Part shown: one piece after another, positions 289-48,098 of the stretch
How positions within the stretch are numbered: the stretch's first letter is position 1
Layout of the letters: the number at the start of each line of letters is the position of its first letter
From: Quercus robur
Taxonomy: Eukaryota > Streptophyta > Magnoliopsida > Fagales > Fagaceae
Length of the DNA: 64,000 bases
Direction: 5' to 3'
NCBI RefSeq assembly: GCF_932294415.1
Contig: NC_065535.1
Span: 25,384,782 to 25,448,781, forward strand
Made by a program: the position numbers and the translations under genes
Notes under the pieces: model-generated
What the model saw: only the letters and a program-made list of their open reading frames with translations
Told to the model about the DNA's origin: nothing
The model's database searches: none

Positions 289-3200
289 TCACCTCTTACC
301 ACGAGATCCAGAGCCAGACCTTGGACCTGGGTATCGCGAAAACTGCAGCCGCAAGTAACTAGAATCAGCATCATTTTCATCCATTTTATAACCTGTGCAA
401 TCCAATTCAATCCAAATATACAGTCAGCATATCGATGAATTTTAGATAACCAGTTACATAGGTAAATATATCAAGCAAGAAATCTAATCCTAGATTTTGA
501 TTGCCCACCTAAGAGCAATGATTAGTCAGTCAATCTTAATCACAATTTCCAGACTAAATTATTCTCTAGTCGAAGCATACACGTAAACTCCCATGCCCCC
601 ATACCCTATTTATGCCACTCATGCTAGAATATATATATATATATATATATATCATGAAAACTTTACAAAGCACTTAGCAGACATTCTAGACAACCAGGCA
701 CTTATACAAACAATTGTTGGGTAAATAAATCAAGCAAGGAGTTACATCATACATTTTGATGGGTCCACCTAAAAGCAATCACGTTCGTAACTGTAATTTT
801 GATCACAAATACCCATCTATAGCATTCATTGGCAGACAATTCAACATGTAAAAATAAGCTTCTGTGCACACATAACATTCCACCCTATTACACCTCTCAT
901 GCTTAGCACAACATCCTTGAAAAAATAATTTTTAACGTGATCAGATAAAATACTAAAATCCTGAGACTTTGCAAATATACAAAGAAGCACAGAGCAGACA
1001 CTATATTATATTGTCTTGATTGCCTGATCACAACTTGACAAGATTTTTTTTTTTTTTTTTTTTGGGTTGATAAATTCAATAATTCGAAAAGGGAGGGGGC
1101 ATTTGAACCCTAGAAGTCTCCATTGGAAATACCAGGAGGTGCTAGTTGAGCTACAAGGGTCTTGGCAACTTGACAAGAAAATACAATGATAAAAAGATGA
1201 AAATAATTCCCCCAACATTGGAACTATAAGAGTGAAGAAGAGCAAAGTCATCACCTTGCAAAGCACTCATAGCAGTTGCTGCACAAGCTGGATTTACAAA
1301 ATCCACAAAACCAAGGATAAGAGGATCTCCACCACGCTGGATTATGAATGAATCAGTTTAGTATGAAGAAGTCACTCTTCTGACAAATTATGACAGTGTG
1401 ACAACCCAAATCAAACTAAGCAGCCCAAATGGATTACAATTCAAGGTCCACTTACGTGTTTGGATTCTTTGCTCACAAGTCTCACTTCTTTATATCCAAC
1501 AAAAGGGCGGAAAATATCTAAAGATCCGGTAAAGGAAATGTTAACAACTAGATCAAAAACAGTCAAGTTTGACAATTAAAAGACTCAGATGAGGGGACAA
1601 AGATCAATGTAATTTCTTAGCAGGATCAAAACACAATTAAGGATACGTGCCACCTCCCTCTTTGAACTGTCAGGAGGAAGTCCTTCAACATATAAAGTGT
1701 TGGAAGCATCTGGAGGTAGAGATTGTGTTTCACGACCCCGCCTAGTCGTGTCCAGTGGAAGCTGACTACTCAGGCTAACATTTCGACCATTTAGTGCTAG
1801 ATCAGGACCAACAGCCCCAGGACGACCCAACAAAGCAGGATCAGCTATTGGGAGACCAGGCATTCCAGCACTAGAGATCCTTCCCAACCCAACTCCACGA
1901 AGTGTACTTGCTTCTCCAGAAGCAGATGAAGGAAGTTGCTTCAAAAGCAATTATGATGAACTTTTAGCAGACATATAGGTGAATGCATGAAAGAAAAAGT
2001 AAGCACAGCTTATAGGTTTATCAGGTTACCGCACTCTGGAGATAGCGGTCATAAGCTGATCCAATTGTTTTTGTGTCCTTTACTGCCTGATGACCACTGC
2101 GATCATCATCTCGTGCTAGATAGTTATGCATCTCATGACCTGAAGGCAGCCCAGAAGGCACAAGATCTGCAAAATTATAAATACAGATGAACAGAATTCT
2201 TGAACTCAATGATCTGTCTTAAACAAGATGCAGATATACAATGCACCAAATTCTTAAAACTGTTCATAGACACACCTGTACATACATCAGCCATACTGAA
2301 AGAAGGTAAAATAAAAGTTAAAAAAATAGGAAAGACCAAATCCAAGAACAGAAGGCGCCTTTTATTTGATTTGTAGATTTAGATGAGCAGGAGAAGCACA
2401 GCCTAAAACTTGAAACATGATAACAGAAGCTAACTTTAGGTGTGGGGGCGGAGGATTAATTACAGTAGAGGGAGAATACAATTTGATAACTTCAAGAAGG
2501 TTAATTTTTAGAATTAGTTTTTGATGTGAATCAATTATTATCTACATTAGATAAACAACGTATTAGCCCTAGACATGGACAATCTGGTGGGCTTCTTTTG
2601 AGCCAATCACATTTTGAGAGAGCTTTGGCCACGAATAGTGAAACACTCAAAATTGACAATCTTAGCAGTCGATGCATGCTATGTATGGCCCACAGCCGAC
2701 ATCAGAAAAAAAGAAAATAACGATGATTCACAGAATATAAATGAAGGACAAAACACAATGTGGTATAATCATACTAGAAGAAGCTCAGGATGAAAATTTT
2801 AGAAAAGATAATCTAATATTTGAGTAAAAGATGCATTAGGAAGAGTGGCTTGCACCCTGGAACCAACTTCAAAATTTTTCCTGATATGGAACACTGTCAT
2901 AGACTATTAACATGTAACAGCTGATCACACACAAACTAGAAACAAAAGGTAGAAGCATTTCTTAAAGATGTACTGTCGTGGGAATTTTTTATCTGCAAAT
3001 CAATGCTGTGAGATGCTCAGATGCAAAGAGGTCACAGAATATCTAATACGTGAAAAAGAAAATGACATAAAGAGCAGACCAAACATTGAAGCAATAGAAA
3101 CGGTTGCAAATAAATACAATACAGCTCAACATATAAAAGAAAAAGAAAAAAAATCACCAGAATCACTAATGGTTAAATGGTTTGTATCTGTTCTGACATG

Positions 3201-6200
3201 TCTCGGTATTGGAAATGATATGGTTATTGATATCAAACATCCCTAAACTAAATTAAAACGAAACAAATGACTACCTATGATATTTTTCTACAACAACAAC
3301 AGCATTTGGAATGTAAAGGGATTTACTAAAGATACCCAAAGGTTTTCCTGGCTAGAGGCGAGTCCAAAGAGCTCTTCTTTGGAAAGGTTCCCTATGTTAT
3401 CACCAAAAAAAAAAAAAACAAAAAAACAAAAAAGGGAGCAAAACAAAACAAATATTAAGGGAAAATGCAGCCATACCCCTCCAACTTTGGGTCGGTTTCA
3501 AACTAACCTCTTGAGGTTCTACATTTTACATTCTAGATCCCTAAATTCATCACAACAGTAAAATTGCTCCTTCCATTCCATTCCGTTAGTTGAATGGACA
3601 GAAAGTACTGTGCACCACATGATTACAAACGTGTGCAACAGCCCATTACCAGTTCCTACAACAAAATGGGAGAGTTAACGAGGAGAGCTTGCAGCTCCAC
3701 ACCCCTGACCAACCTTACTCTCACAGCACACCCTCAGCCAAACCCAACGCAAGCTCCCACCATCAAACCCTTCTCACACAGCAACTCTCTTCCAACTAAC
3801 AATCCATAGCAGCCCCAAATCATAACACAATGCCACATCAAGCGGCCAAAGCAACAGACCAGCTTTTCTCAAAAAAAAAATAAAAATAAATAAATAACAA
3901 GAAGAAGAAGAAGCAACAGACCAGCGCAGCCACCCTTGTTGCAATTCCCATGATAAAGCCATTGCCACAAACATACTTGTTTTTTGATAGGCAAATCATT
4001 CGATTAATTGCCAATGTGCTACAGCAGAAACAAAAACAAGCCAGACCCAATTAAACCTCCACCCAAATCTACTAACTCAAACAAAAAATATCCAATCGCC
4101 ACTGCTGGCCAAACCCAAAAAAACACCCATATTGCCAAGACCACAGCAGCCCTTGTAGCCAAACAGCCCAAATCCTCAATCCATTAGTTGAAATCCACCA
4201 CTTCATTGAGAGCCTATCACGCCAGCAAGAAACCTAGCCCAGTTAACCGCCACAATGCTGTTTTTGATAGGGGTGAGGCTGACCACTGACTAGAGAGACT
4301 GAGAGAGGGGGGGGGGGGGGTGGTGGGAGGGGATGAGAGAAAACAAGATTAGATGAGAAGTAAAAAAAAGTAAATGAAAGGAGACAAAAGCAGCAAGAAG
4401 AAGAGAGAAGAAACATTGATGCCAATGGCGATGAAGAGGAAGTCGATCAGGCAAACCCCTCGCCAAGCACCCAAGACCATAATAAACACCCAAAACTTGC
4501 ACAACTACCATCTTTCCACAAAAGCCAAATTGCCACCATGAAGCAGAGGCATCCAACAGAGAGAAAGTAATGAAGTGGTCAAAGGAGAATTTGTCTTTGT
4601 ACTTGTGGTGAGTTTAGATTAGGAGAATTTGTGGATCTAGGGTTTAGAATTATTGAAGAAAAGGCTATGGAGTTATGTTAGGAATTAAAAAGTGGATTGA
4701 TGAGTTATTTGATAGCTATTTGATAGAAGAAAGTATGTGGGTTTTGATAGGTAAAAGAAATGGATTGATTTGGGACTGTAAGGCAAAAGAAAAAAAGAAA
4801 GGATTTTATGGTGTTTAGTGATGTGGGCTGAGACCCACTAGGTTGGCAAAGTCAAAGATTCAACCAAATGATAAGATGGATAGTTCTAGGATGCCACTCA
4901 ACTAGAGGTAGCGGATACCACTCAATGCTACTAATCGCAAATGCCACTCAACGTGACCAAGTGACACACTTGATTGTTAGGAGGAATCACTCAACTCCAA
5001 AGCAATAACACTTGCAAATAATTATCTATATTAAATACTCCCTCTCTCCTTGTTTCTGATTTCTCATTGATATTTATAGGTGAATACATTGCATGGGAGA
5101 TAAATGCTTACAATTAAATGCTAGACAACTCCCTAGATTGGCTTCAAATCACCCTATGATAAGATTATTACATTGGAACAACTACCAACAAGACTCATAA
5201 TTAACTTTGATTGAATAATAAAGATAAATAAAAGACAACTGGACTTCTAAATAAATGACACATGTCGCTACCACATAAGTTGCCACTATGCTCTTGCATC
5301 ATTTAGTAGCTAATGAACAGTACATGTGAACGATACCACAAAAAAAGAAAAGAAAAAAAAGAGGGAAGAGAAAGGGAGAAATAAACGCATTAAGGCCAAC
5401 ATGCTTAATGCTCAAAATACTTAATATTTTTATTAACATCAACTCTTCTTTGATTCCATTGAGTGCGCGTGCACACACACACATATATATATATTAGAAA
5501 AAACCAAACCCAGTACACCAACAGTGTACTAAGAGAGAAGTACTATCAAGTCAAAAAACAATGATCAAACAAGTGTAAGAGAGAAAAACAAGGGGAGAGA
5601 AAATAGCTGCACTCCAATCCAACAAAGTAAGGAGGAAAAAGGCTTTAATTTCTAGGATATTTTGTTCACATCCCTCAAAACTCCTACAATTCCTTTCTTG
5701 CCAAAGATACCATATAATGCAATGTGGCACAACCTTCCAAAAAGCAATATTTCTATGCTTGCCGAAAGACCCCTGCCAAGCTGAAAACATAAACATATGA
5801 ATGACTGTCATTGGCATAACCCAATGGAGGCCAAATAAGCAAAACACCATATTCCATAGCTCCAAAGCTATAGGACAATGAAGAAGCAGGTGATCCACAG
5901 TCTCCCCACATTTTTTGCACATGCAGCACCAATCCAAGATCAACATACATCTCTTTCAGAGATTACTTATAGTTAGGATCTTCCCTAGAGCAATAGTCCA
6001 AGAGAAGAAGGCTATCCTAGATGGGACCTTTGAGCACCATACCATCTGCCATGGGAATGATATGCCATTAGTTCCCAAAGTTGAAGACCAAAACCCCTCC
6101 ATCCACTACCTGACTTCCCTTCTGGCACTATGATGGAACCCCTACGCCGCCCTTTCATCACATCTTAAATCAACAAATAGGAACCATTTGCATTTGAACC

Positions 6201-8716
6201 CTTATGAAGGATGAAGGCTTTATCGCTCTCTCTTATTAATCTAACAAATTGACCATCATTCTACGCTGATATCAATTCCTCAATGTTATGCACTAACCAG
6301 TTAGCACTCTCCTTGCCCAAAAAGATTGACCGCAACGAATCCTTGCCTCTTTCATATATGCGCAAATGCAAAGGTGAATCTGTTGATCATCTTTTACTGC
6401 ATTGCTCTATTGCTTCAGACTTATGGTCAATGATTTTGGGTTTGTTGGGAGTTTATTGGGTGATGCCAAAATCTGTTGTTGAACTTTTGGCTTACTAGCA
6501 AGGTTGGTTTGGTTATCATCGGAATGATAGGATCCTTACAGGTGAGAATTTGAGGGTTAGAGGGTTGGATTTTATCTACTGGTGTATCATGTGCCGTAGT
6601 AATGGGGAGACGGTGGATCATTTGTTACTACATTGTGGAAATGCTTATCGGTTGTGGAGTTTGGTGTTTAGACCTTTTGGGTTTTCTTGGGTCTTGCCAA
6701 GATCGGTTGCGGATACTCTATTCGGTTGGTGGAATTGGCCCAAAAAGCATTTGTCTAGCATTTGGAATTTAGCTCCATTATACTTGATGTGGTGTCTTTG
6801 GAGGGAGTGAAATAGGAGGACGTTTGAGGACATGGATAGTTCGGATGACCAGCTATTGGCCTCTTTCAGTGGCACTTTGTTTGACTGGTCTAGGGAAGGG
6901 AGACTCACCTCTAGTGATTCTCTCCCTGTGTTCCTTAGCTCTCTCCTGTATACTTAGTATCTTTTCTTGTCTTTATCTTTACACTCTTTCTTTTCCCTTT
7001 GTATTTTTCTCTCTGCCTTATGTTTTTCTGCATAAGGTAGTGTTCTTGAATATAAATCTTTATTACCTATCAAAAAAAAAATTATCGGAATGGTCATATT
7101 TGGATGGTTATCCCCCATTGCCTGATATGGTGCATCTGGAGGGAATGGAATAGCATGAGTTTTGAAGACACCGAAAGTTCTATGCCTGACCTCAAATTGT
7201 TCTTTTTTAGAACTTTATTGGATTGGTTGTCAACCACAAGGAACCTTTCTTTATTTTCTATTGTTTATTTATTAGATTTATGCAATTTGTGTAACTGATT
7301 GTTTACCCTAGTATACTTCCTATAAACTTGGGAGACTCATTTTCCTAATTTATACAAGTTTATTACTTATCCATATATATATATATATATGTGCAACAAG
7401 TAATAATTACCACCCTCAACCAAGAATTCAAACGATTTTGATTCAATGAAGACAAAAACAGAACCCCCCCCCCCCCCCTTCCCATCTCATCAGGGAAAAA
7501 AAAAAAAAAAAAAAAAGATAGGAAAAAAAAACAGTGAAGCCAAAAAATGTGAGAAATCTATGGCTAATTCGAGGTAGCCAGACCTCATTTATGACTAATT
7601 CGAGGTAGTTAGGACTATGACTAATTAAGGACTCTTTCTTAGAATCAAAGAAATTAAAACCTACAATAATTATGATCTCCTAGAAATTCTATACTTAACT
7701 ATATTACCAAAATACCCTTAATTTGAAAGGATTACAAAAGCTACAAATTTTCCCTGGATTCAGAATGACCCTACCTTGTTAAATAAAAGACAAAAATGCA
7801 AATTGCAACCCTAAAGTTTGGGTAATTTTGATTTTGCCCCTAACATTTAAAAATTTTGATTGGCAGTCCTCCCATTAATGGTTGTGTTGATGTGCTCATT
7901 AAGTGAAACCTACACCTGCCACATGTATTAGACTATTAGTTTGTCCAATCAAATTATGCCATGTCAATTAAATGAATTAATCATGTCACATCACTTAAAT
8001 AACCTAAAAAAATTAAAATAATTCTATACACACACACATATATACATATATAATAAATGCATACAATAAATTAAATCATTCCCAACATTTTCTTGAAAGC
8101 ACTTTTTTAGCATCGAAACGGAATTTATGTAGTGAAGAAAGAAGAATCAAAGAAACCAATAAATAAATAGGTTTACAAACACATACTATTATACTAAATA
8201 ATCTTGCAAACAGCCAAACATTAATGAATCCCATATCACACAATACATCAGAATCTTTGGCAAATCTTATAGATTGCTATCACCTCACTTTCTTGTCTCA
8301 CTTTCTCTACCCAATTCTCTCTTACCAAGGCCTCCAAGCCACTTGCCACCGCCATCAACAGCGGTGGCTCCAAAATTTCTCCTCTCTCTCCAAAGCGAAC
8401 CATCTCTAGATTGATGTCTTGTGGCATGTGGGTCATAGACTCGTGAAGTAAGGTCATGAGGCCATGGGGATGAGTGAAAGAGTGAGTGGAAAATGATGTT
8501 GCAGAAGCACATGGAGGCGTGTGGTTGCCATGGGAAAGACCTACGAGACGGATGCTGTCCTTCTGAATCTTAAAGCTCCATGTTCTCCTAGAACGTTGTC
8601 ATCCTCAACATCTCTATGAAACCCGGCTCAAATCCCAGATATTTGTCTCTATGAGCTTTGATTTTTAGGTTGGAGAGCCTAGATATATGATCCTTCAAGC
8701 TTTGAGTTTTAAATTC

Positions 8717-8758
<42 letters not shown>

Positions 8759-9563
8759 CATGGTTCTCTCTTGCCGTGACTGGTATTTTTATGTTTTGAT
8801 TCCTCTTCCTACTTGGTATAGTAGTTCTTAAGTCCTTATATTTGTTATTCTAGGAATAGGTTTATTCAGAGTAATAGTCCTAGGAAAGCATTTAATAAAA
8901 TCCTATATAAAGGCTATATTATAGTCAATAACATTGATAGAGAGATTGATTTTAAATAAAATTCCAGCAGCTTATTTTAAGCTTTAAGGGTGTGATCCCC
9001 TACCTAAATGTGATTGCTAAGGAAAACCAAGGCGTGATTGCCTAGTGTTTTATCCATCTTATTTCTTGTTCTATTCACTGTTTTAACACCAAACAACCAT
9101 CAACATATTCAAGATTCAATCTTTTCTTTCCCCAATCCCTTATAAACATCAATCTTTGTTCAAGCACCCTATAAGATCTTATCAAGCAATCTAATATAGT
9201 ACATTGGGAATGACCGAATTATAATGACAAAATCACATGCAGCACAAGATTATATACATTATATATAGATAGTGACAAAATCACAACGCTGGTTTTTGTA
9301 AGCCAGATTGTGAGACACCTAGTGATGTTAATGCATTAAAAATTTTGAATGCACTACAACAGAATTAGCATTTAGCTGAGTTTTTTTTCTTTTACAAGCA
9401 AAGAGTTTTTCAGTTTTCACAAATGCTAAAGAAATTGAACATTATAATGAATTTGAAAAGACGAACCGTATTCAGAACGAGGTCGTTTAAGCAAGCCGCC
9501 TGAAGGTAGTAGAGGCGGTTGATGTTGCTGTTGCTGCTGCCGATTCCAATAGCCATCCGTCAT
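289..9563 (-). CDS. Nuclear-speckle-type RRM RNA-binding protein, six exons
   Basis: Spliced gene reconstructed by hand: exons 9467-9563, 2030-2166, 1647-1938, 1456-1517, 1255-1336 and 289-392, all with GT/AG borders and matching phases, giving 774 nt (257 residues plus TGA). The start is MTDGYWNRQ followed by a Q-rich stretch. Residues 79-155 are G/P/L-rich. One RRM lies at about 158-245 with RNP2 LYVEGL (about 160-165) and RNP1-like LILGFVDF. The C-terminus is R/G/S-rich ([13 protein letters not shown]). This architecture matches plant nuclear speckle RNA-binding proteins (NSRa/b and Medicago RBP1, the ENOD40 partner), which bind RNA and influence alternative splicing; assignment is from memory of the family. 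Intron 1 is 7.3 kb and full of retroelement fragments. The reading frame has no lesion, so the gene looks functional. The main uncertainty is the exact paralog. Confidence 0.9.
1044..1165 (-). mobile_element. tRNA-derived SINE in intron 5
   Basis: A 122 bp insertion read on the minus strand: an A-box-like GTAGCTCAACTAGCACC, a B-box-like GGGTTCAAATGCC and a terminal A-run (poly-T at 1044-1063 on plus). It is flanked by a perfect 13 bp target-site duplication, CAACTTGACAAGA, at 1031-1043 and 1166-1178. These are hallmarks of a Pol III SINE mobilised by LINE machinery. It lies in the 119 bp-plus intron between exons 4/5 and 6 of the RRM gene and does not disturb splice sites. Confidence 0.85.
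5500..5950 (-). pseudogene. LINE remnant, zinc-binding RT C-terminal region
   Basis: A minus-strand frame of about 130 residues starts with [19 protein letters not shown], the zf-RVT signature found at the C-terminus of plant L1-type LINE ORF2 proteins, followed by W-rich [12 protein letters not shown]. The polymerase domain is absent, so this is a 5'-truncated, dead copy. The same fragment recurs at 36450-36865. Confidence 0.75.
6283..7300 (+). pseudogene. LINE remnant (zf-RVT) split by a younger LINE
   Basis: Plus-strand zf-RVT pieces: [18 protein letters not shown] at about 6367-6420, continuing after 7084 with [15 protein letters not shown] and [15 protein letters not shown]. The two halves are contiguous in the duplicate at 37260-37620, which shows the break at 6527 is an insertion. 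Premature stops (for example after LLAY near 6496) show it is dead. Confidence 0.75.
6527..7083 (+). mobile_element. 5'-truncated LINE inserted in an older LINE remnant
   Basis: A 557 bp insertion encoding the zf-RVT end of a LINE ORF2 ([20 protein letters not shown] at about 6580-6640), a 3' UTR, and an A-tail at 7072-7081. Both ends carry the target duplication ATCGGAATG (6518-6526 and 7084-7092). The corresponding site in unit B near 37430-37440 is empty. Strong 5' truncation is usual for target-primed reverse transcription. Confidence 0.88.
8716..8756. repeat. CT microsatellite
   Basis: Uninterrupted (CT)n of about 40 bases inside intron 1. Bases 7710-9466 otherwise hold AT-rich intron sequence with no protein signal. 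Confidence 0.9.
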
Positions 9564-9700
9564 TTCTTGTATCTGCAATTGAAGAGAGAGAGAGAGAGAG
9601 AGAGGTTTAGTTTGTGAGAAAATGAAATGGTAATTAGACAAAACAATACCATAATTTTTGAGAGTACCTTTTGGGTTGGGTTCGATGAAACCCTAAGCTG
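9564..9700 (-). promoter_or_regulatory. 5' leader of the RNA-binding-protein gene with a short leader intron
   Basis: Reading on the minus strand, a donor (AAG then GTACTC) at 9668/9667 and a branch/CT-rich acceptor ending TTGCAG at 9573 suggest a 95 bp intron in the 5' UTR, eight bases before the ATG. The (CT)n tract of this intron appears as the GA repeat at 9583-9603 on the plus strand. No in-frame ATG makes a better start. A poly-T run at 9773-9792 (plus strand) lies farther upstream. Transcription start and TATA box were not identified. Confidence 0.5.
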
Positions 9701-9879
9701 AAAATGCAAAAGCACAGTCTCTTTGTTTCTTTCTCTCTCGACTGGATCGCTATGCGTTTTGTTATGTGTTTGTTTTTTTTTTTTTTTTTTTTGGGGCTGA
9801 GAACAGAAAAGTTTCTCTTTGGTTTTTGGGGGTGGTACTGTCTGTGTACACACTGCCACTATCTCTGTCACACGCAATT

Positions 9880-12350
9880 GCGACTGCTAGGGGCCTTACT
9901 TCTTCACTTTGTAGGTACTTGGTACAACCAATTGTGCCCCACCACGTCATGGTTAATTACTTCGTGGCAACATGTGATACTACTATGTGGCGCCTGACCC
10001 TGTAGGTGCAAGCGCGGCCCGTCCCCTTGAATTTTTGAATACTCGGATCAGAAAATGTAAAAGAGCCCAGGCAAGTCTAGTTCGGTATTAAAAGTTTAAA
10101 ATTATTTATTTTTAAATAATAAGGTAGAATACCATATCATATTTTTGGTTCGTTTGTTATTTCATAAATATAAGTGTTTGTAGAGTGTGGAGAATAAAAG
10201 TTGGGATTTAAGTTTTCAGGAGGGAGTTTTACATACATATATACTTAGATTAGACATTTAGACTAGAATAAAATTTCTATCTTGTAAAAAAAAAAAATAA
10301 TAATAAGGTATAATTTTTTTTTTCAAAAAAAAATCTATTTTGATCATGAGCCAAGCTCGAGCTCATAACCAAACAAGATTTTATGTCCAAGTTTAACTCA
10401 TTTTCTTATCGAGTAAGTTTGAGTTTATTCAAAAGTTACTTAATTGACTTATTCTTTAAAATATATATATATATATATATATATTGTGAAATTATAACTT
10501 AAAATGTTTACCTCTTCAAAATTTTATGATTTTTTACTATGAAACTATGAATAGACTATTTATATAATCAATAAGTAACAAATTATTATTTAATATCATA
10601 TAAACATATTGATAAACTTATACAATCAAATTTTAGATCTATATAAATATATTTTTAGACAAATATACATATAAAACTGTTATATAGTTAAATAAAGTTA
10701 TCATGTTCACGAACACATTATTATGTTTGAATTTAACTCATATAATAATCGAGTCTAAACTTAAGGCTTGAACTTGGGTTGTTTTCTAAACAAACGAATA
10801 AAAAAAGTTTTTTTTTTTTTTTTTTTTCTTCTGAGCCCAGCTCAAGCTGTTCATAAATAGCTTGGTTCATTTACAGCACTAACTTTGATCAAAAATTATT
10901 TTGGTCATTTAAGTTTGAAGTTGATTATTTTAGTCTAGTAACTTTTTCCAAAAATCATTTTAGTGCTTTAAATTTGAAGTTGGTCATTTTAGTCTAGTAA
11001 CTTTGCTCACAAATTTTTTTAGTCCTTTAAGGACTCACTTAGTCGGATAATGTTGTAAAACCACTCAAAACTACTAACTTATAGGACTAGAATGATTTTT
11101 GGGGAAAGTTATTGGACTAAAATGATAATTTTTAAACTTAAAAGGACTTAAATGATTTTGAGGTAAAGTTATTGGGCTAAAGTGACAAACTTCAAACTTA
11201 AAGGATTGAAATGATTTTTTTGGGCAAAGTTAATAGTGATAATTGCATTTTTTGCTAAAAATAAACCTAAGATACTTATTAGGATCTCCTAAAAAATTTT
11301 AAACTCAAGCAAATTATCAAAATACCCTTGATTTGCAGGAATTGCAAAAAGTAAAAAATTTCTTTCAGAATATAAAATTAACCATACCTAATAAAATGAA
11401 ACCCAAATTAAAAATTGTTTTAACCCTAAAAGAGTCAAACTTAGACCATTAAAATGAAATGACCTTCACTTCAATTGGACTTCTAAGGAGGACCCAATAA
11501 AACAATTCTTGAATAGGTGATTTTGCAAAGTAATAGCATATCAATCTTCCATGACTTCATCATTCTCCTCTGATTAGAAGGAACTTGACCTCGAGTTTTA
11601 AAGTGTTGAAGTATAAGAACCTTCAAACTTGAAACTTGCGTATAAATTCTTCAATCCCCTTTGGAATCATCAAGAATAAAGAATCCAAAGGAGAGCATTT
11701 TGCAAAAAATGTACCAAAAGCTAATTTATTTATTTTAAGTTCCCAATTTAACAATACACCCCACATTTCATACTCTATTTTATGATACAATATATTAAAA
11801 TAATCTTTAAAAAATTCTACTTTATAATGCCCCATGCTTAACTCACCCAAAACAAAAACACAATACCCAACTCATGATTAAAAAATTAGAAAAGAAAAAG
11901 AGAGAGAAAAGAAATAGAGATTTATTTTTGCATCATGGCTCCATTTTAGCTCCCCAAATATAGGGGTGTTTGTACATTTTTCTTTTAATAGTGAGAATCA
12001 TTTTACATTTTGGCTCCCCAGATGAGAATGTTTTACCAATATTCGTTTTATTGACCAATAAATTGATATCAAATTTAAACCCATCTCAACTATACTCATC
12101 TCACCTACCTTAATTGAGGTGGGTTTTACGTGTCTCGCATGGCAAATGGGGTTGGGAAAGAGGTAAATTTTCTTTGTACCTGACTTGTTTATATTTAAAC
12201 AATTAAAAAATATTTTTTATAGATTTTTTATGAAGTGTATATATATGGGCTTTTAATCTTCAAACATTGAATCTATGGTGTCTATTAGTGTTGTATTATT
12301 CAATTTATATTTTTATGTTTTAACATTTAAATATTTTAATTTCTATATTC
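9880..12350. other. Gene-free interval upstream of the RRM gene, degraded repeats
   Basis: No host gene is visible. About 10340-10860 contains arms built around GAGCCAAGCTCGAGCT and GAGCCCAGCTCAAGCTG, typical of degraded plant MITEs. 10461-10484 is an AT microsatellite. 11480-12100 resembles minus-strand retroelement debris with no intact frame. Confidence in individual identities is low. Confidence 0.4.
10877..11239. mobile_element. Fold-back MITE with repeated arms
   Basis: The two halves are inverted repeats of each other: the left edge CACTAACTTTG faces CAAAGTTAATAGTG on the right. Each arm holds two or three copies of a phrase around TTTTAGTCTAGTAACTTT, so the ~363 bp unit could fold into a long imperfect hairpin. 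No coding potential. I could not define a target duplication. Confidence 0.65.
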
Positions 12351-12838: not shown

Positions 12839-12862
12839 GTTTGGCACCGTCTATAGGGACGA
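12839..12862 (+). other. Putative primer-binding site
   Basis: Immediately after the 5' LTR is GTTTGGCACCGTCTATAGGG. Its position and likeness to the TTGGCGCCGTC-type primer-binding sites of Tat elements support this. I do not assign the tRNA. Confidence 0.6.
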
Positions 12863-12914
12863 CATTTTTAGATTCATATTTGAAAACGTAGTTTCCATCA
12901 ACTTCTATATTCAA

Positions 12915-14130: not shown

Positions 14131-14132
14131 TT

Positions 14133-17735: not shown

Positions 17736-17831
17736 TAGATGTAACAAATGAATATATTCATTCCTGAAATTAATAAAAGAATTATTCATCTAATGTCTTT
17801 ATGCAAGCAGGTCTAGTCAATCGTACAAAAC

Positions 17832-21700: not shown

Positions 21701-21793
21701 CCTTGAATCGCTCTTTTGGAACAACTAGCAGATATCTTATCCTATATACGAGTACATTATACATTTATGTGAAAAATATTTTGTAAAAAAATT

Positions 21794-30536: not shown

Positions 30537-30577
<41 letters not shown>

Positions 30578-35400: not shown

Positions 35401-35404
35401 CATG

Positions 35405-36082
35405 ATGATGCATAGAATATAAATTAAGGACAAAACACAATGTGGTACAATCGTACTAGAAGAAGCTCAGGATAAAATTTTTAGAAAAGATAATCTAATA
35501 TTTGAGTAAAAGATGCATTAGGAAGAGTGGCTTGCACCCTGGAACCAACTTCTAAAAATTTCCTGATATGGAACACTGTCATAGAATATTAACAAGTAAC
35601 AGTTGATCACACACAAACTAGAAACAAAAGGTAGAAGCATTGCTTAAAGATGTACTGTCGTAGTAATTTTTCATCTGCAGATCAATGCTGTGAGATGCTC
35701 AGATGCAAAGAGGTCACAGAATATCTAATACATGAAAAAGAAAATTACATAAAGAGCAGGCCAAACATTGAAGCAATAGAAACGGTTGCAAATAAATACA
35801 ATACAGCTCAACATATAAAAGAAAAAGAAAAAAAATCAGAAGAATCACTAATGATTAAAAGGTTTGTATCTGTTCTGACATTTGTCGGTATTGGAAATGA
35901 TATGGTTATTGATATCAAACATCCCTAAACTAATTAAAACAGACACAAATGACTACCTATGATATTTTTCTACACCAACAACAGCATTTGGAATGTAAAG
36001 GGATTTACTAAAGATACCCAAAGGTTTTCCTGATTAGAGGCGAGTCCAAAGAGCTCTTCTTTAGAAAGGTTCTCTACGTTAT

Positions 36083-36118
<36 letters not shown>

Positions 36119-37701: not shown

Positions 37702-37738
<37 letters not shown>

Positions 37739-38050
37739 GCGCAACAAGTAATAATTACCACCCTCCTCAACCAAGAATTCAAATGATTTTGATTTAGTGA
37801 AGAAAAAAACAGAACCCCCCCCCCCCCTCCCCCTCTTCCCATCTCACCAAGAAAAAAAAAATCAATGAAGCCAAAAAAAGTGAAAAATCTATGACTAATT
37901 TGAGGTAGCCAGACCTTATTTATGACTAAACCGAGGTAGTTAGGACTATGACTAATTAAGGACTCTTTCTTATACTAGTAGTCTTAGGAGTTAGGACTTC
38001 TAATTTAAGTAGTAAACAAACTTCGACTCAAAGAAATTAAAACCCACAAT
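35405..38050. repeat. Segmental duplication, unit B, intron-1 part
   Basis: Copy of RRM-gene intron-1 DNA (2729-7710) without exons: includes the 92-codon frame (35650-35928), the minus-strand LINE remnant (36450-36865) and the plus-strand LINE remnant (37260-37620), here uninterrupted. It stops at about 38045, where it joins sequence matching 23350, so the DNA equivalent to 7710-23345 (with RRM-gene exon 1) was lost from this unit. Confidence 0.85.
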
Positions 38051-39464
38051 ACTTATAATTTCTCCGGACTTTCTTACACTTTCTTTGCAACCAAACACAA
38101 CCTAGATTTCAAACCCAAATTTAAAACCAAACACAATAGGGTGGATCTCTCTCTCGAGTTCGTGAGCTCAGCCATGGCTTGTCTCTCTACGAGACCCACC
38201 ATAACAAACAACGGTCTCATGACGGCGTCACCACCGCTAGTTGTAGCCATCACTCCTCATCTCTCATTGCTTTTTTTTTTTTTTTCTCATCTCCGACTAA
38301 AGCACATTTTGTATTTCATTTTCCTTTTTAATATAAATTTCTCTATTTTGGTTGATATAATGGGTTGGTTTTGTTTTAGTTGTGAGAAATCTTTGATTTG
38401 TGCTCGGGTTTACGAAGTGGGGTTTTGGCCTTTGGGTCACTGTTAGTATTTGAGTTTGCTTCTTCCTCTCCTTCTTTGTCTAACCTCGTATGTTGTTGGA
38501 GATGTTGAGCTCTTGGGTCTACTTGGTATTCTTTGAGCAAATGGATGGTTTGGGTTTTTTGTTTGAATGACTATTTCAATGGGTTTTCTTATTTCTTTGA
38601 TGTGGGTTTACAAACAAAATTTATGGTGAAGAGAGCTTCAATGTATGAGTTGAATTTCTGGGTTTTGGCTGGGTCCGGTTTGCAGAGAAGGTAATATGAT
38701 ATGAGTGCTCTTTGTTGTGATTTCGAAGCATTATTTTCTTTCTTTAAAAATAAAAAGAATTGAGAAATTATGGGTATGTTTGGTAACTGTTTTTTTCCTT
38801 TATTTTCTGTTTCTAAAAACAATTGTCTATTTTTGAGTCTAAAAAACTTGTTTGGCAACCCAAAATGGACATAAAACAAAAATTGTTCTCAAAACTCAAT
38901 TTGTGAAAGAAACTGAAAATATGTAAAAAGCTGTTTTTAGTTTCTAATTTTTAAAAGTCAATGAAAATATGCATTTAATTTAATGAATCTATCTTATTTA
39001 ATAAGTTAGCATTAGAGTTCAAATCCTAATAACAACATATTTAATTATTTTCTACTTTTTTCTTCAAAAAATTATCTTTTTAATTTCAACTAGCCAAACA
39101 TGTTTTTGATTTCAAAAATACAAGAAAATTGTTTTTTCTTTATATTTCCAAAAACAAGTTTTTGAAAATAGAAAACAAAAACTGTTACCAAACATAACCT
39201 AATTTTTTGTTGTTTTTAATTTAGATGCTGACATGGTATTTTAATTATAATTTTAGTAGCCATGTTATCATCTACTTTGCCACTTGTGTAAGCCGTTTGC
39301 CATATAGATAATTCCGTTAGTGAGTTAACGATAGGGACCAAATTTACTGCATATTGAAAATAACAGGGATTAAATTGACCGTTACTAAAATGTAGAGACT
39401 AAATTAAGTGCGACTCCAAAATATAGGGACCAAAATGGTATTTTCATCTAAGTTTTAATTGCGT
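38051..39464. mobile_element. Left-truncated copy of the outer MULE (unit B)
   Basis: Follows 23350-23385, then 25148-25947, then 29182-29323 of unit A, without the inner TIR element and without the LINE. It ends with the same right terminus and target sequence TAAGTTTTA (about 39451). Left terminal repeat is missing. Confidence 0.8.
38771..39199. mobile_element. MITE, 429 bp, unit-B specific
   Basis: Termini GGGTATGTTTGGTAAC and GTTACCAAACATAACC are near-perfect inverted repeats. TA (possibly TTA/CTA) flanks both ends. Unit A near 25873 has the uninterrupted sequence. No coding potential. Confidence 0.85.
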
Positions 39465-41313
39465 TAACAGCTTCGACTTTGGTGCCTTGTTCTTCCATTA
39501 AGTCCTGGGAATTTTCGTTGCTATGGGATGTGGTGTTGTGTGCTAATGGGATGGATGTGGGTATTGGAATTCTTATTTTGGAATCACAATGAAGAATTGT
39601 TGCATCTTGCAACTGCAGCGCAGATGGGAGGTTGGTTTTTAAATAAGCAGCATAGCATGATTTGTGCCCTGGTACAAGATCTTGAGATTTGCTAAGGAAA
39701 TGAGTTTTAGCTCAATTGCACTTTGTTTGACATCTTCTGATCTTCATCACATTAACAGTATTTGATGAAGAAGAGATGACATGCCGATTTTTAACCACAG
39801 GAAATATACTGGAGTGACTCTTTTGTATAAATACTACTATTAATTATAATTCTAAATTTTTTTACAAAAATTATAGCCAAACAAAGAAATTTATAAATGT
39901 TTCTTTCCGAGATTGCTTGATATATAATATGTAACATTTTACTTCATGAATTTTGACCTCATATAATTTATGGAATAGGATCAAATTACACACAATGTAA
40001 CTCTTTGATACTTTTATACCATTGAATAACCATTAGCTGGATTATTATTCTAAGAATTCCATAATTGGATTAAACATTCCTGCTCTTCTTAACGTGCCAC
40101 TAAGTTTCGTATTGAAGAAATGATTTTGTATTATTCGATCCATGAACTAGTATTTTGTGGGCTTACAAAAAAAAAAACAGGTATTCTGTGTTGAGACTTG
40201 AGAAGAAAGAAGAATTACAAGCTGCTGCAGAATTAAGAGACAAGTTGCTGCTAAAGATACAAGTCCTTTTACTTCCTATGTAATAAGTAGCTTATAAGCT
40301 ACAGGTAGTTTTATTAGTGTGTACTTAAGTGATTCCCACGTGAAGCACGTGCCACCTATGACAGTGGGCTAATCTGTTTTTATGTTAGATTACTGTTAGT
40401 TACAGCTGGTATATCAGCCTTGGGTTTATGCATATAAACTTAATCACATCAATAATAATCATTATGCATTCTTCATTAATTAGTTTCTCTTCCAAATTTA
40501 GTATTCTGAGTATACTTTAAAATAGCAAAAATAAAAAAATAAATATCCATAAACTGGTGTCTTTCTATTCTTTCGAAGTAGTTTCAAGTTTCAAATTGCA
40601 ATAAAACGCCAACGGGAGCTTGGCTCAATTGGTAAGGCCCGGATACTTCTTCTAATCACTTAGGTTCAAGTCCTGCTCCTAACAGAAGTCTGTTAGTGGG
40701 CATCCACACGGGTTGGCCCTAGTTTCTTTTCCAAATTCAGTATTCTGAGTATACTTTAAAATAGCAAAAATAAAAAAAATAAATATCCATAAACTGGTGT
40801 CTTTCTATTCTTTCGAAGTAGTTTCAAGTTTCAAATTGCAATAAAACGCCAACGGGAGCTTGGCTCAGTTGGTAAGGCTCGGATACTTCTTCTAATCCAC
40901 TTAGGTTCAAGTCCTGCTCCTAACAGAAGTCTGTTGGTGGGCATCCACACGGGTTGGCCCATGGGCTTTAACCTTAGCACTTACCCGAGGGCTAGCGTAA
41001 CCTAGCTAACTCCTATTTTTGTTAATAAAAAAAAAATTGCAATAAAGCAAATTAGAACCATGGTGACGCTAATAGGATTCTTGAGTTTAACTTTTAGTTA
41101 GATATTAATCAGGAAATCTAAAGCTAAATGGACACACACAAAAACGAAAAAAAAGAGAGTACATTGTGGCTAGCCAGTAACATACGGACTACATTATGAT
41201 ATCACAAGAGAGCATAAGAACTTTCTTTAGCTAAAACATTAACTACTTCATTAATCAGTCAAACAAATTATTGGTCATGGTGATTTTGGGTCCTAGCTAC
41301 TTGGGTGCAGGGC
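39465..41313. other. Intergenic DNA downstream of the intact kinase
   Basis: Counterpart of 29324-31335. Apart from the SINE and its partial duplication, no feature seen. Confidence 0.6.
40606..41033 (+). mobile_element. tRNA-derived SINE with partial tandem duplication
   Basis: The complete SINE is 40846-41033 (188 bp): A box TTGGCTCAGTTGG near 40860, B box GGTTCAAGTCC near 40906, A-rich tail 41027-41036. Target duplication AAATTGCAATAAA at 40833-40845 and 41034-41046; unit A has the empty site near 31070. Its first 114 bp plus about 125 bp of left flank are repeated in tandem (period 239-240 bp: 40481-40719, 40720-40959), so a second partial SINE lies at 40606-40719. The promoter boxes resemble a tRNA, but the 3' part is not tRNA-like. 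Confidence 0.9.
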
Positions 41314-43635
41314 TCAATTAACTTCCAAGGAACTGAGAAAGGATGTAGGACCAGGAGGAGCTGGTATGTCCACTGTCCCTTCCAACATCAGCACCACCTT
41401 CTTTATTGGAGGGCGAAGTGATGGCTCATCCTGGATGCACCAAAGTCCCACCCTAACCATTCTCTCCAACTTGTTCCTGTCCACCTCTTCATCCTTCACT
41501 AGCTTATCCAATTCACCAGCCTGAAAACAATCATAGACCCAATTTGCAAGAACCACTTCATCCTCTTGAAGATCCATATCCACATGCCTTCGACCACATA
41601 TGATCTCTAACAACATGATCCCAAAGCTGTAGACATCAGCTTTCGCTGTTATGGGCAAATTTCCATGCCACTCAGGTGCAACATACCCCCTTGTGCCTCT
41701 AATCCCAGTGTATGTCCTTGTTTGGTTAGGCATCAGCAGCTTGGCCAAACCAAAATCAGCAATTTTGGCACACTTGTGTTCATCCATTAGTATATTTTCA
41801 GGTTTGATGTCGCAGTGGATGATCTGGGTCTCACACTCTTCATGTAAATAGAGGATGCCTCGAGCTACATTCAAAGCTATTCTAGTTTTTTCCTCCCAAC
41901 TCGGCTTTCTTTCAGATTCAAAGAGGAATTTTGCTAGTGAGCCATTGCTCATGTACTCATAGACCAAAAGCCGATTGTTTCCATCATGACAGTAACCAAA
42001 CAACTTAACAAGATTTTTGTGATAACTTCTCCCAATTGCTCTCATCTCATTTCGAAATTCTCTTTCACCTTCAGCCACCACATTTTCTAGTCTCTTGATG
42101 GCCACCACTCTCCTGCCATTTGGTATGACCCCTTTAAAAACTGTTCCGAAAGCTCCTTTACCCAATTCATCCGAGAAACCATTTGAAGCCTTTTCAAGCT
42201 CCGCATATGTATATGATCGTAGAGTAACATCTTCAATTAACTCGTCATTCCCAATAATTTTGTACTTCCAAACACGGTATCTGTAAATGAGAGTACCAGT
42301 AATTGCTAGAACAATGAGCGCAAAAACCAAAATTGTGACACTGCTAACTAAGAAAATTGGCAAACGTTTCTTTCTTTCCTTGCTTACCTTTGTTGTCTCA
42401 GAACTTCCTATGCCTACCTTGATTATAGTTGTCCCAACCAAATCATCTTCTTTTCTTCTCCCATATCTTAGTGGTAGCTTTTGTTTTCTACACTGGTTGT
42501 CTTTAAATAATACAACTTCACAGTTGCAGTCCATCAAGCAGTCTTCTCTACAGTCAGTTTTGCTTGATGAGATATTTGAATACGGGTTGTCTTCCCATGA
42601 AATACCTTCGAATTCCTGAAGAGAAAATGTGTCTCTATTTTTGCTGATGCAACCATCTGTGCTAAAATTTCTCTTGCAGCCCAAATTCTTCTGCTCCTGG
42701 TCAATGAAAACAAAACCAGGACACGTACAAACCGGTTCCAGATCCATGAGAGTACAATATGAATTTAGGCCACAGAGGCCTTTAGGATCACATTTATTGG
42801 TAGTTGATGCCCACTCACTAACCCAATCATCTCCTTGATTCAAGCTATGAGAATACAACCGTAATATTCCATCAACATCAATTGTCAAACGAAAGAAAGC
42901 TTTATCAGAATTGTTACTAGTTACTGGGCCGTTAAAATTCTTGATATTGAAACCAGTAGCATTGAGCAGGTAAAGGTGGCCATTACTACCAAGATTTAGA
43001 CTCACATTATTTCCAGCGGTGAATGTTTCTGAGTTCCAGTAAGCATAATCCCGTGAATCTTTAGGATTGTCTGTCGGGTATTGAACCAGGTTCCCATCAG
43101 TCTGCATTTTGAGTTTAAACTTTCCGCTTGCATGGTTTGTCTCAGAGATGCTGGAGACGAGCACTTTTCCCGCCAAGAGACGTTGGCCTTGTAAAATGGT
43201 GTCTGTTGGAACTTCAAAAGTCTGCCACATGATTATTGAATCTGAATTGTAGAGTACAAAGTTTCCAGTATTGAGCATAGATGCCGAGGAAGCAGACTGA
43301 GGAGCATTTGCTAATGTTGTCTGTAAGCCTTGGTTCTGTTGCAAGATAAGTCTGCCATCTCTACTCAAATGCAATTTGACATCTTCGGGAAGTGGCAGGT
43401 CGTCTCGGTTTGCTGTCCATATGACTGTTTTTTGCTGAATTGCTTCCATCCAGATGCCTAATGCAAAGCCATTGTCTTTCTTGTAGAAGCCAAAAGCAAA
43501 CTGGCCAGAACTTGACAACCAATATGAATTGTTTTTTGGAGAGAGGGAAGATCCCAAGTTAATATTGAGATTTCTTTCTTGAGCAATTGTAGTTGAGAAT
43601 TGAGTAATTAGGAGGAAAAGAAATATTGCAACCAT
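41314..43635 (-). CDS. LECRK3: G-type lectin S-receptor-like Ser/Thr kinase, LECRK3 type
   Basis: Uninterrupted single exon of 773 residues, usual length for LECRK1-4 proteins. Signal peptide at 1-19; bulb-type (mannose-binding) lectin domain about 22-150; EGF-like CDPKGLCGLNSYC at about 281-312; PAN/apple-like cysteines about 319-390; transmembrane helix about 424-448 followed by RYRVWKYK; kinase about 486-765 with GKGAFGTVFKG, VAIKRLE (Lys about 513), [18 protein letters not shown] and APEW. HCD instead of HRD makes it a non-RD kinase, common in immune receptors. Family knowledge: plasma-membrane pattern or stress receptors; ligand unknown. The start is the first ATG before a clean signal peptide. 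Neighbour is the broken duplicate at 31336-33469. Confidence 0.95.
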   Translation of the reverse strand: MVAIFLFLLITQFSTTIAQERNLNINLGSSLSPKNNSYWLSSSGQFAFGFYKKDNGFALGIWMEAIQQKTVIWTANRDDLPLPEDVKLHLSRDGRLILQQNQGLQTTLANAPQSASSASMLNTGNFVLYNSDSIIMWQTFEVPTDTILQGQRLLAGKVLVSSISETNHASGKFKLKMQTDGNLVQYPTDNPKDSRDYAYWNSETFTAGNNVSLNLGSNGHLYLLNATGFNIKNFNGPVTSNNSDKAFFRLTIDVDGILRLYSHSLNQGDDWVSEWASTTNKCDPKGLCGLNSYCTLMDLEPVCTCPGFVFIDQEQKNLGCKRNFSTDGCISKNRDTFSLQEFEGISWEDNPYSNISSSKTDCREDCLMDCNCEVVLFKDNQCRKQKLPLRYGRRKEDDLVGTTIIKVGIGSSETTKVSKERKKRLPIFLVSSVTILVFALIVLAITGTLIYRYRVWKYKIIGNDELIEDVTLRSYTYAELEKASNGFSDELGKGAFGTVFKGVIPNGRRVVAIKRLENVVAEGEREFRNEMRAIGRSYHKNLVKLFGYCHDGNNRLLVYEYMSNGSLAKFLFESERKPSWEEKTRIALNVARGILYLHEECETQIIHCDIKPENILMDEHKCAKIADFGLAKLLMPNQTRTYTGIRGTRGYVAPEWHGNLPITAKADVYSFGIMLLEIICGRRHVDMDLQEDEVVLANWVYDCFQAGELDKLVKDEEVDRNKLERMVRVGLWCIQDEPSLRPPIKKVVLMLEGTVDIPAPPGPTSFLSSLEVN

Positions 43636-44933
43636 TTTATCTAAATCTATAGCTCTTGTATATGTATTGTTTTTCCTTTTCTCTTCTTTGCTGCAGTCTT
43701 ATAGCAAACGGTAAGTCATATTGTAATTTTTCAAGGCTTCAATCCAAGGGTAAGTGACAGAAATTGCAGTCCAAAGAGGTAGTCAATATTTTTGTTTCTA
43801 GTCTTTTCGTCAGCCAATACGCTTCACAAGTAGAAATAACAATATATATTCGGTACAGAAGTCAATATTCCCATAGAAATAAGTATCTGCGCTTTTTTCC
43901 AAGGTCTTTAAAGAGATAAATTAGTTGACTTCCAAGAATAGAAATGGTGATTATTGACCCACATTTCCCTGAACCGCTTTTTTTTGGGACCATTTGTTTC
44001 AATTTTCGTATAGTGCGTAAATGGACTCCTTACTTTTCGGTCATATTAAATTGGTTTTAGGGTCTTCTACCTTGAAATTAGTATCTCTCTAAACTTAGAT
44101 ATTTATTTAACTGGATTGGACAGAAAATCTCATAACATAATTAAGAGCGTGATTTGTTTTAATAGAAGAATTTTCGATCCTGATCTTTGCCTTCATTTTC
44201 GCATTTTCTCTCGTTGTGCTGGTGGCCTGCTGGTAGTTTTTTACCACAACTTAGAATGTCAAGTCGGTTCTCAACCCCCTAGCCCTGCTGTCACGTACAC
44301 TTTGCCAAACCCAAACTTTACGCTCCTTACCTATACTCCAATTCAACATACATCTCCATCAACAAGATTGTTTTCGATCCTATCAAGCAACCCAAAAGTA
44401 GGGGCAGTTAATTTTTAATTTGATGACTCTTGTAATGAACTTGTAAAAAACACATGGATTTTTCAGAAGTTCCAATGGACTTGCTCTGTTCTGTTTTGGC
44501 TCTCTCTCTCTCTCTCTCTCTCTCTTCTTTTTTTTTTTTTTTTTTCCTGGTTGAATACATGCCTTGTTTAATTAATAAGATCATAGAGACATTTTTTCTA
44601 AATCTACTTGATTAGCTAAGAGCTTGGCAATTCAATTGGCACCTCTTGGTATTTCTAAGTAAGACGTGTAAAGTTCAAAATTTTCATCTCTTAACTATTA
44701 AATTATCAAAAAAAAAAAAAAAAAAAAAACTTCTTTGATAAGTCATTTGAAATGTTAGACATATATAATTGATTTTATTACAAAAGTTTACAAACTAACA
44801 TAATAATTAATGTCATTGGTGGCACATAGCAAAATAATAAATAAATATGGTAATTAGTTTTTAGTTTTGTATTTAAAAGTTAACATACCAATTTGTCAAA
44901 TTTATCTGGTAAAATTTGTAACAACACTAATAT
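43636..44933. promoter_or_regulatory. 5' flank of the intact kinase
   Basis: Shared with the pseudogene flank and the relic at 21444-21700, so it probably contains the ancestral promoter. No TATA box could be fixed. Includes a CT microsatellite (about 44502-44525) and a tRNA-like SINE relic at about 44617-44730 (AGAGCTTGGCAATTCAATTG; poly-A 44709-44730). Confidence 0.45.
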
Positions 44934-47286
44934 TGTGAGAGACCACTCTACTTTGAGGGGTGCTCTCAAAAAAGAGATTTAGGTGCTTGTAATGCACCTC
45001 TCTTTTAGGTAGTGGTGTGGAGTCACCATTTTTTTTTTATACAAATGTCATTGATTGAATAAATAAAAAGATACAATTTTGGTAAATTAACCTTACAAGG
45101 CTTTGGTCCTAGTTACAATCTATGCAAAAGAATACAAAACTTTGGTTTTAGTTACAATCTACCAAAATTAAACGACAAAACACTAATCTACCTATCCAAA
45201 AATCCTAAACTTGGGGGCTAGGTTAGGAAATAGGAAGGTGTTAGACACTTAGACAGAGTCTGGTCTTCTAGACTCTAATGACTAATATACCCTTTTTGAA
45301 TGATGTTGAATAATATGTATAATGCACATGACAAACACTTGACAAAAATTAATTTAAATAAATTTTCCTTATGAATATGTCCTCTTTTTAAAGAAAAATC
45401 AGATATGTTTTGAAAATTAAAAAAAATAAAACATGATTTGTAAAAAAATCAAATTTGTTTTTTTGTAAAAGAAAACAATGAGATTTATTAAAAAGAATCA
45501 GATATGTTTTTGTAAAAAAAAAAAAAAAAAAAAAAAAAGAGAGAGATTTTTTAAAAAGAATCAGATCTGTTTTGAAAGTAAAAAAAAAAGGAGATTCGGT
45601 TTGTAAAAAAAAAAAAAAAAAAAAAGATCTGTTGTTGAAAACAAAAATAAAAAAGAAAGACTTTTGAAAGAGAATTAACATTCATGCGACAAACTTATTA
45701 AGCATGCTTCACATATTAAAAAAGAAAAGACTTTAACCTAGCTTTCAATCCCTTCTTTAAAATTTCAAAATTCGCACTTTTATAACAAAGAAAAACTTTC
45801 AGATATGTATGTAATGAAAATACAAATCTGTTTTGAGATCAGAAAAAATCAGACCTGTATGTAATGAAAATACAGATCAATTTTGAGTTTAAAAAAAAAT
45901 CAAATCTATATTTAATGAAAATACAAATCAATTTTGAATTTAGAAAGAAAAAAAGAAAGAAAGAAACTTTGGTGATCATTAGCAGTTGAAATCAAAGAGA
46001 AAGAATTAAAACAGACACTCATCTAAATAACATATCAAAGCAAATTCCAACAAAGTAACTAAGCATGGCAATTATATATTAAGAACAAGACACAATAAAA
46101 CATATTAATCACATTCATGAGACAAACAATAACATACTAATTAATGGAAAAAAAAAACAAAAAAAAAACTAAATGTGTCTTGCATGAATGTACTCTTCTA
46201 ATGAAAGAATATTTTAGAAATCAAAGAAGTTTGTTCACCTCTTTGAGATCTAAAATACTTTACTTACAAAAAATAAGTTCCTAAAGTAAAAGCCTTCAGA
46301 ATGTCTTTAACGTAAGGGGAGTAAAAAAGTCAAAAAAGAAGAGCCCTTAATTCTGATTTTTTTTCCCTCTATTTATAGTGGTTGGGATGCTTAAAAAATA
46401 AGCTAAATGAGATCATTTACGAATTGGAACACATCCTTATCTCTAAAAAGTCGAAAAAGATAGGCTTTATCTCAATCAAGAAGTCCTCAAGCCGAGCTGA
46501 AAGTTTGGGCCAATTGGTACTCCAAGAGGGTCGGATGGGTGCCAAGTCCACGTTTGAGTTTTGGTCTAATTTGGACTCCTTTTTTGAGGTTTTTTAAGCT
46601 AGAAATTGCACCTAGACATATTTTTAATCCATATTATAAAAATTAATCCATTTTTCTTGATATTTAGGTCTTTAAAGTGATAACTATCTTGTAGATAAAT
46701 ATTCCAAAAAGACTTGATTATCCACAACTTCTTTGTTATCTAATTATCCACTTTATTTTCATGCAAGCAGGTCTATTTTTGACACTAACCAACAACCAAT
46801 CACAAAATTGTTTAGTTAATTTTAATTTTTAACCAATCAGAATTAATTTAAATTAATTATGCGTGATCGGTTCCACTCAAACAAAAAGACTTGATTATCC
46901 ACAACTTCTTTGTTATCTAATTATCCACTTTATTCTCATGCAAGCAGGTCTATTTTTGACACTAACCAACAACCAATCACAAAATTGTTTAGTTAATTTT
47001 AATTTTTTAACCAATCAGAATTAATTTAAATTAATTATGCATGATCGATTCCACCCAAACAAAATGTATGTAGACTATGAAAACTTGATCTTATGATATC
47101 TTTCAATTCGACAGTCCGATTTGGGAATCAGACATACCGTCGCGATCATTAGAATCTCAAGATCATTTTTATGATATGCAATGAATGAATTAATGCATGT
47201 AATGCAACTTTAAAATTTGGGTATATGAATGGTCACTCTAGTCATCTTCCAAGATTAAATTATAGGTGCAAAATCAAGTGTCTACA
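44934..47286 (+). mobile_element. Long solo LTR S1, 2353 bp
   Basis: TGTGAGAGACC at the start, GTGTCTACA at the end, target duplication AATAT at 44929-44933 and 47287-47291. The corresponding site in unit A (about 34517) is intact. A TATA-like TATTTATAGTG is at 46371-46381. Contains poly-A/K-rich low-complexity stretches (45420-45650) and a 177 bp tandem duplication (46706-46882, 46883-47059). No coding domain. Confidence 0.88.
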
Positions 47287-47291
47287 AATAT

Positions 47292-48098
47292 CATTTTTTT
47301 TAAAAAGATTTTTTAATATTTAGTTTTTAGTTTGGATTTTAAGTTATTTGAATAAAATAAGAAAATACAAATTTATTCTAGGGATGAATTTATGAATGGA
47401 TTAAGATTTATTACTATGTCATTTTAATTAAGATCAGGGTAAATTGCAAAGTACATTTCTAAAGTTTGAGGTTTGTTTAGATTTTACACCATGAAACTCC
47501 CCTCCATGAGCAAAAACAGCCCCTCCATTAGTGGATTTGCCTATGTGGCTATCAAATGACATGCTGGCAATCGAAACACACTCTAGCCGTCTAACGTGTA
47601 ATGTTTTTAGGAGTAAATTGCGAAGTACACTCTTAAAATTTGAGGTTATTTGGATTTTACACCCTGAAATTTGAAATTTGGATTTTATAACTTAAAGTTC
47701 CACTTTGTTAGCAAAAGCACCACCTACATTAGCGGATTGGCCTATATGGCTATAGACGCTCCATTTTGCAACTCCCATTTAACTTTACTTGCATTGCATC
47801 ATGAATTCCATTACATATCGCATCACAAAGAAGAACTATAATTTTGACCACATAATTTCCAATTACATTGCATTATATAGATCTTGTTGTCATAACGATC
47901 AAAATGACAATTCATGAGGCTTAATTGAGCAACCAGATTAAAAGATATAAAAGAAATAAGTTTTAACAGTAAAGTGCACTTAAAATGAATCAAGTCTTGA
48001 CTGTATGCGATTATGATCTCTTAATTTTGAATGGTCTATTTTTAATCCAATTCAAATCAAATGATGTATCATAATACTATTGGTTGAGGATATAGTTT
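47292..48098. other. Right end of unit B
   Basis: Matches 34530-35400 of unit A minus the MITE. Contains MULE-type arm sequences (GGGTAAATTGCAAAGTAC at 47438; AAATTGCGAAGTACACTC at 47619). Homology with unit A ends near 47890, at GTCATAACGAT. Confidence 0.6.

Follow-up and report, generated by a model that had tools for sequence, protein, structure and literature searches.

The 64,000 nucleotides of Quercus robur DNA analyzed here (the window) hold two neighboring copies of a segment, one edge of which lies in an intron of an RNA recognition motif (RRM) gene and the other beside a lectin receptor-like kinase gene. The arrangement raises the question of how such a segment came to stand twice in direct succession, by what kind of join, and how the gene in which it begins came through the event whole.

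Gene content of the window

The window is 64% A+T and contains no N. Profile matches within it comprise a U-box/ARM protein, G-type lectin kinases, the RRM gene, and LTR and LINE retroelements. The U-box/ARM protein is encoded at 55283-56515 (PF04564 and PF25598, the latter described as a plant model), near a local tandem repeat at 54324-54854 (period 257, 2 copies, 92% matches). Ten further open frames, mainly in the right flank and in stretches private to one copy of the segment, gave no Pfam match (0/10), and neither RNA families (at gathering thresholds) nor tRNAs (ARAGORN) were found within the window.

The RRM gene (289-9563, minus strand) has six coding exons (9563-9467, 2166-2030, 1938-1647, 1517-1456, 1336-1255, and 392-289, stop included) that join, across introns with AG/GT borders, into one open frame of 257 aa. 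A single RRM occupies residues 160-229 of the 257 aa (PF00076 RRM_1; E = 1.2e-9). Among 12 sequence matches, the closest relatives of solved structure are RNA-binding proteins, RBPMS2 among them (E = 1e-6), and one scan of viral contigs for relatives returned four pattern matches, none of which was confirmed. The gene is possibly one for a nuclear-speckle RNA-binding protein (NSR). Among the eudicots examined, members of the NSR family have a C-terminal RRM and five to six exons, according to an excerpt of one family study (PMC7073835). With its C-terminal RRM and six coding exons, the gene in the window has this feature set, both parts of which other RRM proteins share.

Two collinear units in direct tandem

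Self-BLASTN of the window gave 128 matches, of which those with at least 80 aligned bases were examined. Together with block alignment, these delimit unit A (2725-35398, plus strand) and unit B (35404-47891, plus strand). The units are collinear and on the same strand over 16 blocks, running from 2722-3433 in A (35404-36114 in B) to 35133-35398 in A (47628-47893 in B), and the largest blocks have E = 0.0. This collinearity rules out chance repeats as the source of the similarity. The end of one copy and the start of the next lie 5 bases apart, which, with collinear copies on one strand, is the arrangement that defines a direct tandem segmental duplication. Such a duplication had been reported in an earlier note on this DNA, with intron-1 DNA of the RRM gene recurring at 35405-38050 directly after unit A and with each unit ending in a lectin kinase and its flank. 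Self-BLASTN bears this out: the intron copy (plus strand, homologous to A from 2722 to about 7690) was found from 35404 to about 38070, its right edge being approximate, and starts 5 bases past the last base of unit A (35398), and the kinase and its flank are seen at the end of both units. Block-wise alignment of A and B covers 8,466 sites, about 60 of which are counted twice through block overlaps, with 582 differences and 93.1% identity. The K2P distance is 0.072 overall and uneven by block (0.041 to 0.162). We infer a single-copy ancestor for both units.

The same geometry (x-y-y'-z) would arise if assembly had placed two haplotypes in series. However, A and B mismatch at 6.9% of the aligned sites (7.6% outside the kinase), they carry separate insertions, unit B has no exon 1 of a gene that is open in A, and it is in A that the kinase is broken; moreover, the junction between the units fits a join at an 8-mer common to both outer breakpoints. 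Given a divergence of 7.6%, private insertions, and an exon 1 confined to one unit, misplaced haplotypes are unlikely, and we give an assembly artefact hardly any weight.

Breakpoints and junction

The sequence ATAACGAT stands on the plus strand at both outer breakpoints, at 2717-2724 on the left and at 47892-47899 on the right; elsewhere in the window it has no further plus-strand copy and one minus-strand copy, at 48330. The left breakpoint falls within the first coding intron of the RRM gene (intron 1; 2167-9466, 7,300 bases). A breakpoint inside a host intron had been proposed in the earlier note and holds, the exon model being an open frame, as does the proposed 8-mer shared by the two breakpoints, which had been placed at 2718 and 47894, off by 1 to 2 positions. 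At the duplication junction (35399-35403, plus strand), 5 bases separate the last aligned base of unit A from the first aligned base of unit B. We compared the observed sequence at 35337-35465 with a predicted join of 128 bases, in which the right end of unit B is followed by ATAACGAT and then by the start of unit A, and the two differ by one 2-base gap and 11 substitutions. The present join reads ATTACATGAT, so that ATAACGAT is no longer intact there, with one substitution and a 2-base gain; such erosion is expected for an old junction, though it is no proof of one.

The two outer breakpoints thus share a short exact match that is in register with the join, as microhomology would have it. Among random breakpoint pairs, an in-register exact match of at least 8 bases has a frequency of 0.00037. 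Once a slack of 5 bases and offsets of up to 3 in register are allowed, the frequency of a match of at least 8 bases is 0.0043 for random pairs, 0.0095 (183/19,356) when the left site is kept fixed, and 0.0030 (58/19,355) when the right one is. The ATAACGAT match itself could be a product of chance, at up to about 1%.

Extended similarity was sought in the 1-kb sequences round both outer breakpoints, and none was found; these sequences share chance-level matches only, the best of 40 at E <= 10 being 21 bases long (E = 0.036) and lying off the breakpoints. Likewise, the left flank (1-2716) and the right flank (47901-64000) show no similarity at E <= 1e-3, and matches between flanks and units are short, dispersed, and away from the breakpoints (18 for the right flank and one of 30 bases for the left). 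These results weigh against unequal crossing over, that is, nonallelic homologous recombination between repeats on either side of the segment, for which long repeats at the breakpoints would be looked for. Nonallelic homologous recombination is named as the main cause of plant copy-number variants in an excerpt of PMC12073271, and the flanking repeats may since have decayed or gone, but with no such repeats at hand we consider this origin very unlikely.

Another route to direct copies is reversed-ends transposition of a hAT element, which would have made the duplication and been excised later. Reversed-ends events in maize yield tandem direct duplications with 8-bp target-site duplications, as set out in the excerpted part of PMC3744419, and ATAACGAT is also 8 bases long. 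However, the 5-base junction holds no element and leaves no space for one, no hAT end was noticed by eye at the junction or at the outer breakpoints, and the model, as we read it, does not predict 8 bases common to the outer native breakpoints. The likelihood of a hAT origin is accordingly slight in the extreme.

Since no homology of greater length was found at the breakpoints, microhomology-type joining is the best candidate mechanism for the junction; of the microhomology-mediated joining proposed in the earlier note, the compatibility of the junction with a join at ATAACGAT stands, and the mechanism itself stays a candidate. For this old tandem duplication in a plant, the join and both outer breakpoints are resolved almost to the base, which makes it a clean case and one in which the mechanism can be argued. 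Very probably, a single direct tandem duplication joined the right end of the segment to its left end at the 8 bases of ATAACGAT, one copy of which lies in RRM intron 1, and the locus decayed later. At the time of duplication, the segment perhaps measured about 19 kb, a length obtained by subtracting from unit A five presumed later insertions, of which two have clear target-site duplications. The joining would probably have involved either two sister chromatids or homologues, by microhomology-mediated end joining, or microhomology-mediated template switching in replication. This mechanism, the order of events, and the age of the duplication are inferred.

The region absent from unit B

The alignment of unit B follows A from 2722 to about 7690 and resumes at A 25140, so that about 17.4 kb of A has no counterpart. 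This A-only block (7690-25139, left edge approximate, plus strand) takes in the remainder of intron 1, a Gypsy-type element, and coding exon 1 of the RRM gene together with the DNA upstream of it. That exon is present a single time in the window, within unit A, and its reading frame continues cleanly into exon 2 across the intron that bears the breakpoint; at E <= 1, neither it nor any other part of the RRM protein matched a second place in the window. We also considered that unit A had been inserted into the RRM intron, a reading that is ruled out by the presence of exon 1 within unit A.

The simplest reading of the missing 17.4 kb is a loss from unit B, in which later deletion would have removed the RRM front end and neighboring DNA; the Gypsy-type element in the block may postdate the duplication, and the loss may then be smaller. 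In the earlier note, unit B had likewise lost the exon 1 region, of which the absence from B is plain and the loss has the standing of a simplest reading. The note went on to conclude that the original gene stayed intact as a result of this loss, a step that is invalid, because the left copy of a tandem duplication keeps its left flank regardless. The RRM gene would have stayed whole for that reason, whatever unit B lost. The earlier interpretation was otherwise mostly right, with this one faulty inference, and the observation of the duplication was right and is unusually well resolved.

Alternatively, unit B never held the region. In one complex event, a compatible variant of the single tandem duplication favored here, template switching would have skipped the exon 1 region, and replication-based models permit two or more switches per event (PMC12073271, in the part excerpted). 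Two switches would be needed here, however, and the second junction, at the unit B edge of the missing block (about 38050-38079), shows no clear microhomology and contains about 13 bases of unclear origin. We regard a skip of this kind as rather unlikely, though still worth serious consideration, beside the later deletion that the simplest reading favors.

Mobile elements and private blocks

After the single tandem duplication, transposable elements would have entered A and B separately. The Gypsy-type element within the A-only block is an LTR retrotransposon (12351-21443, plus strand; 9.1 kb, TGATG...CATCA) with gag, RT, RNase H, and integrase core in order, and with LTRs of 488 bp that are identical at 465/488 positions (95.3%). 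No clear target-site duplication was found for it, nor a matching 5-bp one, hinting at recombination or deletion at one edge; the history of the A-only block is therefore not simple. A tandem array lies inside the element at 17832-18176 (period 95, 3.7 copies).

Two more elements are private to A, both on the plus strand: a LINE-type fragment (zf-RVT; 6527-7083) with an A-run and a 9-bp target-site duplication, ATCGGAATG, and a LINE (RVT_1; 25958-29171) with a poly-A tail and a 10-bp target-site duplication, AACTTTGCTA. Private to B, again on the plus strand, are a MITE-like element (38771-39199), with TTA/TAA flanks and terminal arms in inverted orientation (43 nt, 79% complementary), and an insert at 40606-41033 with a 13-bp target-site duplication, AAATTGCAATAAA, which overlaps a local 240-bp tandem repeat. 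The latter we call SINE-like from our reading of its sequence, ARAGORN having found no tRNA in it. Target-site duplications of at least 9 bases are present in 3 of the 11 insertion candidates tested, and seven others have matches of 5 to 7 bases only. Among these seven, ACTTA (30304-30914) and AATAT (44934-47286) lie at or near the expected edges and the other five are off position; the remaining candidate, of 48 bases in B, is a self-overlap artefact. Within RRM intron 1, an A-only block of 1.7 kb (3434-5145) has no clear target-site duplication, and the corresponding place in unit B is occupied by a run of 31 A. The B-only block of 2.35 kb at 44934-47283 contains an internal tandem pair (46705-47064; period 177, 97% matches).

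The kinase pair

Kinase B (41314-43635, minus strand) is an open frame of 773 aa that carries B_lectin, S_locus_glycop, and Pkinase, and with the three domains in one frame it is a G-type lectin receptor-like kinase. One scan for its relatives in a genome contig collection without plant genomes gave 11 pattern matches, none confirmed. Kinase A (31336-33469, low end approximate, minus strand) is a broken copy, its domains split between two open frames. Compared with B, it differs by single-base indels at four places (A 32535, 32147, 32095, and 31883), has 3 extra bases at 32553 and a stop at 32043, and lacks about 190 bases near 31415. After the duplication, kinase A would have broken and kinase B stayed open. 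Over 702/774 codons, Ks is 0.060 (bootstrap 0.037-0.087), Ka is 0.043, and Ka/Ks is 0.72 (0.45-1.22).

Differences between the two kinases are distributed as a mosaic. A divergent tract at A 31960-32605 has 64 differences in 640 sites (10%), against 43 in 1,697 sites (2.5%) in the rest of the block (31414-33756), and three of the four single-base lesions of kinase A, together with the stop, fall within it. The scan statistic for the tract (25.9) was reached in none of 100 shuffles, which were scanned at a coarser step and had a maximum of 9.0. Synonymous differences follow the same division: codons 315-472 carry 18 over about 97 sites, and the remaining codons carry 8 over about 357 (Fisher p = 8e-8, for a split chosen post hoc). 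A run of 234 bases free of differences (32970-33203) was reached in none of 1,000 shuffles, whereas the run test confined to synonymous codons was weak, with the observed run reached in 131 of 2,000 shuffles. Outside the tract, the kinases differ less than their surroundings do (7.6% mismatch), and inside it they differ more. On this pattern of differences, the mosaic suggests gene conversion between the copies, in which case the divergent tract may have escaped conversion or come from another kinase, and selection is a possible alternative contributor.

We also speculate on the effect of the RRM front end in unit B. Before its loss, the promoter and exon 1 would have lain 5' of kinase A on its strand, potentially giving a temporary kinase transcript driven by the RRM promoter or fused to exon 1. 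The loss of the front end and the death of kinase A would then reflect selection against misexpression and not chance decay, a proposal that we think improbable.

Comparison with known systems

The event is of an ordinary kind and changes no general view. In it, one duplication took a part of the RRM gene and copied the kinase gene whole. In Drosophila yakuba, tandem duplications shuffle regulatory DNA and make chimeric genes (PMC5460883, as excerpted). The intragenic breakpoint in the window is alike in that it would have put a front end upstream of a gene on the same strand, and differs in that unit B today has no RRM front end.

Standard models of tandem duplication, as given in excerpts of PMC3744419 and PMC12073271, are nonallelic homologous recombination, microhomology-mediated break-induced replication (MMBIR), and fork stalling and template switching (FoSTeS). 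Duplications formed by MMEJ or by FoSTeS/MMBIR resemble the one described here in their direct copies, a short match at the join, and no flanking repeats found; in contrast to them, the duplication here is old and decayed, and its mechanism is read from one junction only.

Tandem duplication accounts for part of the expansion of G-type lectin kinases, and in Populus about 38% of G-type genes lie in tandem clusters, according to an excerpt of PMC5007699. The kinases in the window resemble those of Populus as neighboring copies with the G-type domain set. Unlike the Populus arrays, they number two in this window, one of them broken, and the breakpoint of the duplication that made the pair can be read nearly to the base.
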